From contig NZ_JARXHY010000012.1 in the NCBI RefSeq assembly GCF_031127815.1, positions 124,001 through 188,000 of the forward strand: DNA of 64,000 nucleotides. Reading direction: 5' to 3'. Under the pieces are notes generated by a model. The model had not been told where the DNA came from. It searched no databases and was given only the letters and a program-made list of their open reading frames with translations. Each line of letters begins with the position of its first letter. Position 1 is the first letter of the stretch. The translations under genes were made by a program, and so were the position numbers. Of this stretch, positions 1,661-6,989 are shown one piece after another. This DNA comes from Pelagicoccus sp. SDUM812003. Lineage in GTDB: Bacteria > Verrucomicrobiota > Verrucomicrobiia > Opitutales > Opitutaceae.

Positions 1661-4602
1661 AACGGATCGAGACAGGAAAGCCGACGGTTTCGTTGCGTCA
1701 GCGAAAAGGATTTGCCATCGTATTGGTGGCGGCTCTCGCCGGATTGGTGTTTCTACTGGGGGCCTCGCTCGTCGCCGTGTCGCAACTACAGCGCGCTTCG
1801 GCCCAATACGATCAACGCATGCAGCTCGCCCGCGACCACGCCCGAGCATCCTTCGAAATGGCCTTGGGCGAGCTTCAGCGACATGCCGGGCAGGATACCA
1901 CGGTGACGTTCACCGCGGACGCTTATCGTTCGCCAAGGGATGAGGATTTCAATGCGCCGAGCGATCCTGCCACCTCGGGCGTTTATCAACCCTTCTGGAC
2001 TGGCGTATCCAACGTAACCGGCGGGCCGCGATGGTTGGTGTCTAGGCCTTTCGGTCAATCCTTGGAACCGGATCCGCTGAAAGAAATACCGGATCCTGTC
2101 ACGCTCGTGGCTAGAGGCTCAGCGAAGCCGGCCAACGACTCGGATCAAGCCAGGCATGATGTCAGAGTCCCGAAGGCTCCGATCAAGGCAAAGGGCGTGC
2201 TAGGCTACCCTGCGCAAGAGGAAAGAGCCATTGGCCACACCGCCTACTGGGTCGGCGACCTCGGCGTCAAAGCCAGCTACGCCTTGTACGACAAGAGCGG
2301 CCAAGTGGAACACTACAAGGACAGCGAGAAGCTACGCCTGCGGCAAATGACCGCGTCTAATCCTCGTCACGACACAGTCGATACAAACCCCGTGCCCGTC
2401 GTCGCAGACGATGGAACCGTGTCGTATGACGACACGAACCCGATTCGAATCGATCAATATGTGAACGACTTCCAGTTTCGCCATCGGTTTGGCAGCGCCA
2501 ATGACGATCCGTACTTTTTCTTAAACGACCTCACCGAAGACGACGTCCAAAGGCGTTTTCATGACTACACGCCCCTCTCTATCGGCATCCTCTGCAACAC
2601 CGCCGAGGGCGGTTTGAAAAAGGATCTGACACCTGGAGTTGATATTGGGGAATCTGAAGGAGAGGAGCTATGGGATGGAACAGAGCTACAACGATTCAGT
2701 AATTTGTCGTTTCTAATAGAGCCTACCGCAAGCGCCTCGAATGGCTTGGCCTTGGCCTACGAGATCAGTCCAAGTGACAGTGAATCAGATACTCTCTTTT
2801 TTCATCCCATTCTCACCGACTTCAATCTGCGGGTAGGGTTTTGGCTACGATTCCAAGGTAATGTTGGAGAGTTGGTTCTGGGATACAACTTGGCAACCGA
2901 GCTATGGAATCCTTACTCTGCCACATTGATTCAAGATGGCAATATCAGGGTTAGGATCGAAAAACTGCCGTCTATCGCAGGAACCCTGAGAGGGCCTAGT
3001 GATACACGTGAATTTCTACTTAACCTGGAGGATGAAAGCCAGGTCTCGAGACCAATATACGAGCTGAGTAAATCGGTTTGGAGACCCGGAGAGATCGCGT
3101 TGTTCTCCGGGATCAGCGCAGTTCAACCTTCAAGCGACGTACATGAGCTTGATCGATTCAACCACGCCTCTATTGCTGAGGGGTTGCAACCAAGAATCTT
3201 TCGAGAGTCGGAAAGCGAGACTGTCCAACTTGATTTTAGTTTCGTAGATCCTGCTGACCCGACCACAGTCGTTCCTGCGTCTCTCGACGTTGTTCTCGAG
3301 ATCGATCGAGACGGATCCTTTATACGATTGGCTACTTACCGTTTGTCAGGTGAAGATTTACTTTTTCGTGCCAGCGAAGAAACGGTTGACCTAGGTATCG
3401 AATCGGACGCAACCTTTGCATTTACGTGGTCATTGAGTGACGAGGTTTTAAGTTCGGATTCTTTCAATGTACAAAAAACTGAATACGAGTTCGCGGACAT
3501 TGCGTCGAGTTTCACCAGCGAAGTGATTTCAGAGGATGCGTTGAATTCTCAGATCGTAGATGGCTCAATCACGCTCCTCGGCAGAAGGCCAGTGTCTGCT
3601 TCATCTGATGATTGGTCTTACGATATTCCATACGCTGAGATACCGCGACAAGAACTCACTTCTGTCGCAATGCTCAACCAATTCGGAGGCAGCTATGAAG
3701 GTCAGCCAGGAAAAGTCTCTTCGATACTCAACCCTCTTTTTGATACGAGTTTTTTCTCCACGGTTCCTCGCACCGGTCTGAATGCTCTAAACAATCTCAT
3801 TCTACCGAATGCGCATCTGCGAATCGAAGGAACTCCGACCGTCAGCGACCTGCAATCCATCAGGAGCGCTCAGTACCTCAAAGTACACGGGCAATTCAAC
3901 GTGAACTCTACCTCGAAGAATGCTTGGGCGGCGATATTGAGAGCAGTCGCGATGGATAACTGGCAATATGTGGCGCCGATCGTCGAAGAGGAGGACGAGG
4001 GTATTGGTATGTTAGATACAAGCGGCAAGTTCCTGTTTTTCAATTTTCCGCAAGCTTCACAAGAGGTTTATTCAGGTTCCTACGATTCCCCTTTTGCCGA
4101 CAGAATCGTGAAGCTTCGTAGAGGAATCATTCCACTAGACGATGGGGAAATTGTGGATCTTGCTCATAACATTGTATCCGAAATACGACAACACTTCGTG
4201 GCAGAAGGTGGTAGGCCGTTCAGGTCTATCGAGGATTTTCTAGATTCGGCGATCCTCGAAAGCGCGATCGCTGAAACATCGATCAACGACCCAGTACCGG
4301 ATGGAGAGGAACCTCGCGGCATACTCACTCAATCCACCATCATGAACGCATTGGCGCCTTATCTATCGGCTCGGAGCGAAACATTTTTGATTCGGGCCTA
4401 TGGGGATGCGGTGGATCCCGCCGATCCGAGTGACGTCTGGGCGAGGGCCTACTGCGAAGCGGTGGTGAGAAGGACGGTGGAAAAACATGAAACAGACTCC
4501 AATCCATCAGACACCATGAGCGCGACTTCGTCCGACGCCGGCGAGTTCGGTCGAAAGTTCGAGGTGATCGCCTTTCGATGGATGGATCCGGCGGACCTGT
4601 AG
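1657..4602 (+). CDS. Large membrane-anchored protein (Verru_Chthon cassette protein A-like)
   Basis: 981 residues. After a basic leader (residues 1-18) there is a single hydrophobic segment (about 19-43) like the PilX/GspK-type N-terminus, without the GFxxxE prepilin motif; the rest is a long extracytoplasmic region. Length and last place in the operon fit cassette protein A, normally the largest member. The start overlaps the upstream stop (ATGA at 1657-1660). The gene looks mosaic: about 1657-2630 and 4300-4602 are GC-rich like their surroundings, whereas 2640-4250 is visibly richer in A+T and uses AT-ending codons (TTA, AGT, AAT, AGA) more freely. The C-terminal third has helical segments reminiscent of GspK. 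The specific role is unknown. Confidence 0.75.
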   Translation: MKRIETGKPTVSLRQRKGFAIVLVAALAGLVFLLGASLVAVSQLQRASAQYDQRMQLARDHARASFEMALGELQRHAGQDTTVTFTADAYRSPRDEDFNAPSDPATSGVYQPFWTGVSNVTGGPRWLVSRPFGQSLEPDPLKEIPDPVTLVARGSAKPANDSDQARHDVRVPKAPIKAKGVLGYPAQEERAIGHTAYWVGDLGVKASYALYDKSGQVEHYKDSEKLRLRQMTASNPRHDTVDTNPVPVVADDGTVSYDDTNPIRIDQYVNDFQFRHRFGSANDDPYFFLNDLTEDDVQRRFHDYTPLSIGILCNTAEGGLKKDLTPGVDIGESEGEELWDGTELQRFSNLSFLIEPTASASNGLALAYEISPSDSESDTLFFHPILTDFNLRVGFWLRFQGNVGELVLGYNLATELWNPYSATLIQDGNIRVRIEKLPSIAGTLRGPSDTREFLLNLEDESQVSRPIYELSKSVWRPGEIALFSGISAVQPSSDVHELDRFNHASIAEGLQPRIFRESESETVQLDFSFVDPADPTTVVPASLDVVLEIDRDGSFIRLATYRLSGEDLLFRASEETVDLGIESDATFAFTWSLSDEVLSSDSFNVQKTEYEFADIASSFTSEVISEDALNSQIVDGSITLLGRRPVSASSDDWSYDIPYAEIPRQELTSVAMLNQFGGSYEGQPGKVSSILNPLFDTSFFSTVPRTGLNALNNLILPNAHLRIEGTPTVSDLQSIRSAQYLKVHGQFNVNSTSKNAWAAILRAVAMDNWQYVAPIVEEEDEGIGMLDTSGKFLFFNFPQASQEVYSGSYDSPFADRIVKLRRGIIPLDDGEIVDLAHNIVSEIRQHFVAEGGRPFRSIEDFLDSAILESAIAETSINDPVPDGEEPRGILTQSTIMNALAPYLSARSETFLIRAYGDAVDPADPSDVWARAYCEAVVRRTVEKHETDSNPSDTMSATSSDAGEFGRKFEVIAFRWMDPADL

Positions 4603-4703
4603 CCAATCCGCATGCTCCAGGCCGGGCGCGCCTGCTCCGTTTCAGAGTGAACTAGAGCGCGGCAGGTCGTACCCGCTCGGCGACTCGCGATTCGCAAGCC
4701 TCT

Positions 4704-4727
4704 CTCCCCCAGGGAGTTTTCATTTTT
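4704..4727 (+). terminator. Intrinsic terminator after the pseudopilin operon
   Basis: CTCCC (4704-4708), a 3-nt loop CCA, GGGAG (4712-4716), then TTTT-CA-TTTTT. It lies 100 bp past the stop of the cassette A-like gene and upstream of the SRP RNA, so it separates the two transcription units. Confidence 0.6.
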
Positions 4728-4769
4728 GCAAAAAAGGGGTTGAAACGTCGGTGAAGACCGTCGAGCCTC

Positions 4770-4882
<113 letters not shown>

Positions 4883-4890
4883 CCCAAGAC

Positions 4891-6039
4891 ATGAGCAGCG
4901 AAGGCTATCAGGTAATTGCCCGCAAGTGGCGCCCGCAGAAGTTCGACGACGTGGTCGGACAGGAGCACGTGGTGCGGACCCTGAAGAACGCTATCGAGCA
5001 GAATCGCATCGCTCACGCCTACCTCTTCGTAGGACCGCGCGGGACCGGCAAGACCACCACCGCCCGCATCTTCGCCAAATGCCTCAATTGCGAAGGCGGC
5101 CCGTTGGTCGATCCGCCTGAAGACTCCGAGATCTGCAAGGCGATCATGAACGGCAGCTGCATGGATGTGCTGGAGATCGACGGGGCATCCAACAACGGGG
5201 TGGAGCAGGTGAGGGCTCTGCGCGAGGACGCCCAATACGCCCCGAGCCAAGGCAAGTTCAAGGTCTACATCATCGACGAGGTGCACATGCTTTCCACCGG
5301 AGCCTTCAACGCGCTGCTGAAGATCCTCGAAGAGCCGCCGGCCCACGTGAAGTTCGTTTTCGCCACCACAGAGGCGCACAAGGTCCTGCCGACCATCGTG
5401 TCGCGTTGCCAGCGCTTCGACCTCAAGCCAATTCCGGAAAAGCTCATCCAGGAGCGCCTCGCCTTCATCGCTAAGGCGGAGGGCATTGAGGCCGACGACG
5501 CGGCCCTGAGCGCCGTCGCTCGGCTGGCAGACGGAGGGATGCGCGATTCGCAGTCCATCCTCGACCAGCTGATCGCCTTCTGCGGGAAGAAGATCACCGA
5601 AGCGGACGTGCTTCAGGTCTACGGTCTGGTCAGCGCGGACGACATTGACGCCCTCGCCATCGCCATCGCCACGGGTGACCACCCGCGCGTGCTGGAATTG
5701 AGCGACCAGTTCGACGCCTCTGGACAGGATTTCTACCGCGCACTGGTGGACCTGCAGGCCCGGGTGCGCCACGCCTTGATCGAAGCGGTGCGCGGAGGAG
5801 GGCAGACCGATAGTCTCGGCACCCCGCTGAGCACCGAATCGCTCACCCGTTTGCTCGATAGCCTGCGGCAGAGCGAATCCGGTTTGAAGTTTGGCCTCAC
5901 CGAAAAGGTCAACTTCGAGGTCGCGTTGTTGAAGGCCTCCGAGGAATGCCGAGCCCGGGCCATCGACAGTTTGATTCGCGAACTTTCGTCCCTAGCGGAG
6001 AACCTTCCGGAAACCGCTGACGAAAAAAAAAACGGCTGA
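4891..6039 (+). CDS. dnaX: DNA polymerase III subunit gamma (short dnaX product)
   Basis: 382-residue AAA+ clamp-loader ATPase that loads the beta sliding clamp in the replisome. Walker A GPRGTGKT is at 48-55, Walker B DEVH at 129-132, and the sensor 1/SRC motif (TIVSRCQRF) near 168-176; the Cys residues at 64, 67, 82 and 90 fit the zinc module. Domain III follows to about residue 365. The frame stops at 6037-6039 directly after a run of ten A (6023-6032, codons GAA AAA AAA AAC), far short of a full tau protein. The -1 frame stays open beyond (see the tau entry), so this is best read as the gamma product of a gene that also makes tau by slippage, as in E. coli (ribosomal) and Thermus (transcriptional). 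It starts 9 bp after the SRP RNA terminator. Confidence 0.95.
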
Positions 6040-6386
6040 GCGTCCCTGAACGGATTCCCTACACTGCGAATTCCATCAAAGCCGCTCCTGCTCGTCCGGA
6101 TCCGGTAGCCCCTCCGCCGGGCAGTCCCCCAGCTACAGACGAGCTAACCCCGGCCCACGAGGCGGACTACCAGATCGACGCTCCCGACGACGCCGATCTC
6201 GCCGAAATGCTCGGCAGCGCCATGCCGGTGAGAGACGAGGATATCGTGCCGGAAGACGGGTCCGAGCTGCCGGACATCGATACGTTGAAGAAGCGCATTC
6301 CTGAAAAGACGCAGGTGCTGATGGAGGAACTCTTTCGGGCCAAGCTCCAGAAGGTGGAGCGAGTGAATCCGAAAAAGATAAAGTAG
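6030..6386 (+). CDS. dnaX: dnaX tau-specific C-terminal extension, read in the -1 frame after the A10 run
   Basis: From the A10 run (6023-6032) the -1 frame is open for 118 codons to TAG at 6384-6386. It encodes a proline/alanine-rich linker (about 6080-6135) followed by an acidic segment and then a basic helical C-terminus containing [10 protein letters not shown] and ending in KKIK. This is the normal build of a tau C-terminal region (flexible linker plus small terminal domain contacting DnaB and the polymerase alpha subunit), giving a total of about 498 residues. It has no plausible ribosome binding site or start of its own. One inserted A (A11) or two lost (A8), by transcriptional slippage, or a -1 ribosomal slip on A AAA AAA, would fuse it to the gamma frame. 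A homopolymer assembly error would give the same picture; the precise stop after the run suggests real recoding. Confidence 0.8.
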
Positions 6387-6476
6387 GCCTGCCGGCTGAC
6401 CGCCCTGGCCCATGTCGCCGCAAGCGGGCGAACCGCGAAGCGTCTTCTCGTATCCGGAAATTGGAGATGCCTCGAG

Positions 6477-6989
6477 TTAGAGGCTTCGATCCGATTGCTC
6501 GACGAGCCAGTCGCGCAGCGTCGACAGATCTTCGTCCTTCAGGCTCATTTTCAAGTAGTTCGGGTCGAGCTCGAACGCTTTCAGAAGATAGAGCTTGGCG
6601 GAATCCAATTCGTCACTGCAACACGCGTAGCAGCCAAGGTTGTAGTGGATGATGGCTTCGTCAGGGAAGCGTTTGGCGGCTGTCTCCAGAATGCTGCGGG
6701 CGCCCGAGAGCGAGTTCGCCCGGCGCGTGACGAAAGCGAGATTGACCAGGTTTCCGGGATCGCTGGTTTCCAGCGACGCCAGATGGTTCGCCACTGGCAA
6801 GGCGTCGTTCCACCGCTCGGCTTCCATCAGAATCGCCAGTTTCATTTGCTGGGTCTCCTTGCGTTGCTCGTTCGGCGGACTCAAGTCCGCGAGCTCCCGC
6901 AGCGCGTCGTCAAACATGCCGAGCTCGCGATACCCGTTTGCGTAGGTCAAGGTCTTGCGGTACAGGATCTTTTCGCGCTCGCTCTGCAT
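6477..6989 (-). CDS. TPR-repeat protein
   Basis: About 170 residues from the ATG at 6989; an upstream in-frame TTG at 7076 would add 29 residues of low-complexity sequence and is less likely. Two to three TPR-like helical pairs are visible, the clearest in the second half (AIIHYNLGCYACC ... AKLYLLKAFELDPNYLKM), with the usual aromatic/Gly/Ala spacing. There is no signal peptide, so it is probably cytoplasmic and acts as a protein-protein adaptor. It converges on dnaX and is followed upstream by a 267-bp gap before the EF-hand gene, so it is probably monocistronic. The partner is not evident. Confidence is good that this is a real gene and a TPR protein, low for any specific role. Confidence 0.7.
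   Translation of the reverse strand: MQSEREKILYRKTLTYANGYRELGMFDDALRELADLSPPNEQRKETQQMKLAILMEAERWNDALPVANHLASLETSDPGNLVNLAFVTRRANSLSGARSILETAAKRFPDEAIIHYNLGCYACCSDELDSAKLYLLKAFELDPNYLKMSLKDEDLSTLRDWLVEQSDRSL

Follow-up and report, generated by a model that had tools for sequence, protein, structure and literature searches.

The gene studied here is a dnaX on the plus strand of the window, by which we mean the whole stretch of 64,000 nucleotides of DNA that was analysed. The product of its upstream frame matches the NCBIfam model TIGR02397 (dnaX_nterm, E 1.8e-127) and the Pfam models DNA_pol3_delta2 and DNAX_ATPase_lid. This gamma frame runs into ten consecutive A residues and reads GAA AAA AAA AAC GGC TGA at the junction, with four bases between A10 and TGA. 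The frame at -1 is open from 6021 to a TAG at 6384-6386, that is for 121 codons if they are counted from 6021 and for 118 if they are counted from 6030. The initial annotation had described a gamma frame that ends five bases past A10 and a -1 frame open for 118 codons, and both can be read directly from the sequence. The features of the locus are as follows.

4891-6039, plus strand: dnaX gamma reading frame, 382 amino acids, AAA+ clamp-loader ATPase (TIGR02397 and Pfam matches).
6023-6032, plus strand: A10 run, proposed to be slippery (sequence; 9-13 A in 203 of 232 loci of the order, with a readable tail).
6037-6039, plus strand: stop codon of gamma in the templated frame, TGA (spacing shared by all 8 genomes found for the genus).
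6047-6049, plus strand: TGA in the third (+1) frame (frame reading; enrichment test in relatives).
6021-6386, plus strand: putative tail specific to tau, read at -1, 121 codons plus TAG (open frame, coding signature, relatives).
6276-6383, plus strand: conserved C-terminal element of tau, with two predicted helices and an ELFRA motif, after a variable linker (alignment, AlphaFold2).

With the TGA at 6047-6049 and the gamma TGA in place, every register other than that of tau leads to a gamma-sized protein. The run at dnaX is longer than chance would give, because a search of both strands of the 5.75-Mb genome finds an isolated A10 (with non-A flanks) at only two places, and the genome has no run of A14 or longer; the other isolated A10 is at G000:C2:191687-191698. 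Upstream in the window's dnaX, lysine is encoded once by AAA and 18 times by AAG, while the run itself is all A; the GC content of the window is 57%. Directly 5' of dnaX, at 4776-4874, lies a bacterial small SRP RNA, the sole match in an Rfam search of 4500-6600.

The arrangement is conserved among relatives. All eight genomes of the genus found by our search, the window's own included, have an exact A10, the stop of gamma four bases further on, and a -1 tail that stays open. The family search covered 120 genomes, 115 of which matched at E 1e-60, and the order search covered 132 genomes, 122 of which matched. In all, 232 loci were read, 119 from the family and 113 from other families of the order, in a first batch of 196 (113 and 83, respectively) and a second of 36 (6 and 30); a second dnaX copy of genome G223 was left out. 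Within the family, 113 of the 115 loci that extend beyond the run have tau at -1 behind an A9 or A10, and four more loci end before the run. The two exceptions, L045 (A12) and L056 (A11), have tau in frame; each is a single locus and could be a sequencing error. Outside the order, 60 of 63 matching genomes of the class have an open frame of at least 528 amino acids among the matches listed, and the three remaining matches are at or near contig ends. None of the 19 class loci outside the order that were read has A9 at the junction, two of these loci being cut by contig ends.

Is the tail a genuine part of a protein? When the eight genomes of the genus are compared, mismatches in the tail frame fall on the three codon positions at 0.212, 0.170 and 0.554, and the other seven tails share 61-66% identity with that of the window. 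Judged by this substitution pattern, the -1 frame of the tail is a translated coding frame under selection. No model of Pfam or NCBIfam matches the tail, so its identity as tau rests on its position and on its homology to the tails of relatives. In an alignment of 38 tails, a variable linker is followed by a consensus end, LPxLxxLVxRIPxxTRxLxxELFRAxFxxVxR. An AlphaFold2 model of the tail, with a pTM of 0.33 overall, places helices at tail residues 85-91 and 94-104, where block pLDDT is 89-93. Several other Verrucomicrobia records have a continuous DnaX with a similar end, e.g. KALEIFKGQIVEVR; on this resemblance those ends are probably homologous to the end of the tau tail.

Several simpler accounts of the frame break can be offered. 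Homopolymers are a classic site of error, and single A11 or A12 variants in relatives (L045, L056, L231, L272) could be errors. The initial annotation had kept open the alternative of a homopolymer sequencing error within a gene that is really continuous. An error of this kind, in sequencing or in assembly, is now hardly credible, because many separate assemblies share the break, in the genus and in the family alike, at the counts given above. One might also take the tail for the decaying relic of a lost tau, or suppose that the lysines are kept for reasons of the protein. Small-genome families (f6, f7, f25, f27, f28) lack the run, and several of their tails are short, as a relic would allow. 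However, the excess of third-position mismatches marks a translated frame, which argues against decay as well as against sequencing error, and the run-less relatives L258 and L239 have no lysine tract at this place; we regard the chance that either version is right as close to nil. Re-initiation after the gamma stop, which would make the tail a separate protein, could draw on the closeness of the tail to that stop. In the window, however, the tail frame extends for 58 codons beyond the run before it reaches an ATG, GTG or TTG; among 187 loci such a codon is found within the first ten tail codons in 49, and ATG in six, so that we consider re-initiation very improbable. The relic tail, lysine selection, re-initiation and sequencing error were rejected on the tail substitutions, L258 and L239, the start codons and the conserved break, respectively.

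The register of tau varies across the order. A run of 9-13 A and a readable tail are present in 203 of the 232 loci (A10 in 152, A9 in 45, A11 in four, A12 and A13 in one each). Of these loci, 148 have tau at -1, 34 have it in frame 0 and 21 have it at +1; a continuous tau ORF, absent in the window, is therefore present in 34 of 203. The remaining 29 loci comprise four that have the run and a cut tail (L279, L288, L377, L406), four cut before the run (L202, L409, L411, L412) and 21 without a run of 9 A. These last are L242 (A8, classed here as without run), L239, L258, L310, L311, L312 and 15 loci of f7, f25, f27 and f28, families whose genomes are about 1 Mb. Throughout the small-genome families f6, f7, f25, f27 and f28 (L310-L312, L386-L388, L392-L395, L398-L405), there is no 9-A run at the junction, and dnaX is mostly continuous or short. 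In f8, the sisters L239 and L242 have lost the run next to +1 relatives with A10; L239 has a C7 nearby, and L242 has A8 and no nearby stops.

More than one register occurs within each of the families f1, f8, f19, f20, f22 and f24, and close sisters may differ, as do L042 and L045 (A10, A12) or L229 and L231 (A10, A11). A FastTree tree (130 labelled rows) requires at least 15 register changes and an IQ-TREE tree (95 labelled rows) at least 14. These minima fall to 8 and 9, respectively, when eight mostly solitary loci are omitted (L045, L056, L231, L242, L245, L272, L280, L290). Both trees, like the codon-shuffle test below, were drawn from the first 196 loci only. Solitary register cases could be homopolymer errors. 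The grouped cases could hardly be: +1 in f8 (five loci), f16 (seven), f19 (three) and f22 (three), and frame 0 in f2 (seven), f19 (six) and f20 (six). Two assignments were made by judgement. L303 was placed in frame 0 by hand, and its tail agrees with those of its sisters; the longest open frame of L408 would put this locus in frame 0, but its -1 frame has the conserved end motif, and it was counted as -1.

What varies little is the closure of the frames that do not lead to tau. Both are closed within 40 nt of the run in 191 of the 203 loci. When tail codons are shuffled, a procedure that preserves protein composition, 32 loci on average, and at most 47 in any of 500 shuffles, close both frames within this distance, as against 178 of 187 real loci. 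If each family and register is represented by a single locus, the double stop is present in 23 of 26 (7.7 expected, maximum 16); the loci of the second batch, which were not shuffled, have it in 13 of 16. The nine misses among the 187 (L047, L160, L219, L230, L268, L278, L295, L302, L303) have their farther stop at 41 to 358 nt. The lack of nearby stops in L242, with its A8, is as expected if slippage was lost there. Contrary to what slippage leads one to expect, L408 has A10, tau at -1 and no nearby stop in either other frame. This locus is the second dnaX of genome G059, which is rated 7% contaminated, and its gamma frame is open for 466 nt past the run. To judge from the loci compared, selection preserves the homopolymer and the double stop, not the frame.

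How would such a gene give its two products? We think it very probable, on the strength of these sequence comparisons, that the dnaX of the window makes gamma and tau through programmed transcriptional slippage. RNA polymerase would slip on the A10 and yield mRNAs with a varied number of A. An mRNA of templated length would give gamma, which would end five bases past the run. One extra A, or two fewer, would let translation continue in the tail's frame and so produce tau, and mRNAs of other lengths would lead to the second nearby stop and again to a protein of gamma size. The slippage in RNA, its efficiency, and the production and use of both proteins are what we infer from the conserved run, frames and stops.

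The serious competitor is programmed -1 ribosomal frameshifting, in which a faithful A10 mRNA would give tau by a shift on A_AAA_AAA or A_AAA_AAC. The phase of both heptamers fits a -1 shift in the window, and the phase fits in the -1 group as well. Slippage in RNA is favoured nonetheless, because at least nine A are kept where a ribosomal heptamer needs six or seven and AAG would be synonymous. All that a ribosome requires for a shift to -1 is a heptamer, a single direction and a single close stop, whereas the order keeps at least nine A, three directions and two nearby stops, which again favours transcription. There are orthologues whose tau lies in frame 0 or at +1, and the closure of both non-tau frames is more than a -1 shift calls for. 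Of 17 loci in the +1 group, nine have a stop of the -1 frame directly behind the run and 16 have one no more than 30 nt away, and a -1 ribosomal slip would yield no tau there because that frame closes so near the run. The argument from registers rests on relatives, the window's own family having tau at -1 in 113 of 115 loci. Since the homopolymer and the double stop are kept and the frame is not, slippage of RNA polymerase fits better than a ribosomal shift.

Ribosomal stimulators and tRNAs bear on the same choice. The initial annotation had seen no stem-loop or SD-like stimulator. For the window this holds: the fold 3' of the run has a z of -0.90, and there is no SD-like core within 20 bases 5' of the run. 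It does not carry over fully to the relatives, in which structure is weakly enriched both upstream and downstream of the run, a point in favour of the ribosomal shift. In 113 of 187 loci, downstream folds have a mean z of -0.59 with 12% below -2 and upstream folds a mean z of -0.34 with 9% below -2, compared with mean z of -0.10 to 0.27 and 2-4% below -2 in five control stretches. In a second fold test (131 of 187 loci), the downstream bias was strongest in f22 and f8, where tau is mostly at +1. SD-like cores in the 187 loci show no excess over the nearest control: strong cores precede the run in 28, against 27, 4 and 3 at three control places, and weak ones in 64, against 56, 22 and 4. The genome of the window has one tRNA-Lys UUU and one tRNA-Lys CUU (all 40 tRNA matches read), and two lysine tRNAs also speak against a ribosomal shift. 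Weighing both sides, we consider ribosomal frameshifting unlikely as the source of tau in the window. The preference of the initial annotation for transcription over the ribosome is thus supported by run length, the register changes of relatives, the double stops and the two lysine tRNAs.

We know other examples of dnaX genes that are read in two ways, and the comparisons that follow draw on portions of the published accounts. The arrangement itself is already known. In its cited part, Antonov 2013 (PMC3711429) describes two-ORF dnaX genes with a poly-A, in which tau is at -1 in the DNA and transcriptional realignment was proposed. Nine of 17 such genes have ten A; they come from 12 genera and have tau at -1 only. 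Those nine may include a genome of the window's family. The window resembles them in that gamma ends directly after the poly-A, tau is at -1 and the arrangement is conserved in relatives; the difference is that here one order, in many genomes, has tau in all three registers. According to the same source, differing direction among orthologues is a sign of transcriptional realignment.

In Thermus thermophilus, an A9-type run with double non-tau stops gives mixed mRNAs and hence gamma and tau (PMC1088944, PMC5009743), and there are two lysine tRNAs, compared with one in E. coli (PMC5009743). The window likewise has at least nine A, stops in both non-tau frames and two lysine tRNAs. The difference from the Thermus gene, as these accounts give it, is that tau is templated there, whereas gamma is templated in the window and tau would need a slip. 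Thermus-like candidates, with an in-frame A9 or A10 at the gamma/tau junction and stops in the other frames within 33 nt, were seen in 8 of 95 loci of other groups (L072, L081, L087, L108, L109, L115, L142, L144), the run lying 1124-1270 nt from the start of the dnaX match. Their record titles name Verrucomicrobia, Ignavibacteria/Ignavibacteriae, Bacteroidetes, Desulfobacteraceae and Pyrinomonadaceae. A T-run of 8 or more at 1000-1350 nt was found in none of the 95.

With the -1 ribosomal frameshifting of E. coli dnaX, in the portions of the literature used here, the window shares the gene, the two products and an A-rich site. In E. coli, however, tau is in frame 0, an SD-like sequence and a stem-loop act as stimulators, and there is one lysine tRNA, whereas the window has gamma as its templated frame and lacks an SD-like core in the 20 bases before the run. 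In Blochmannia and Buchnera, poly-A frameshifts, dnaX being one case, are thought to be corrected by slippage (PMC3017870, cited in part). Tolerance of poly-A indels via slippage would be common to both situations. In the symbionts, however, GC is low, the frameshifts lie inside the tau-only part and slippage is read as the correction of a defect, whereas slippage at 57% GC in the window would be programmed.

Neither slippage of dnaX in this order nor drift among three registers was found in the titles and abstract beginnings of the openly licensed papers that our searches listed. Whether RNA polymerase or the ribosome acts at poly-A frame breaks of dnaX is a question often left open. Sister lineages whose register was changed by small changes of the run offer a natural experiment on the mechanism and on the gamma:tau ratio. 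In practice, gene callers should be expected to overlook tau in many of the order's genomes. With somewhat more confidence than doubt, we suggest that dnaX in this order is indifferent to frame: slippage would supply three registers, the frame would have drifted at least 8 to 15 times, and a single-base indel in the A-run would cost little although it moves tau to another genomic frame, because slippage would supply all registers. If true, an essential replication gene would have a reading frame in the genome that is nearly neutral.
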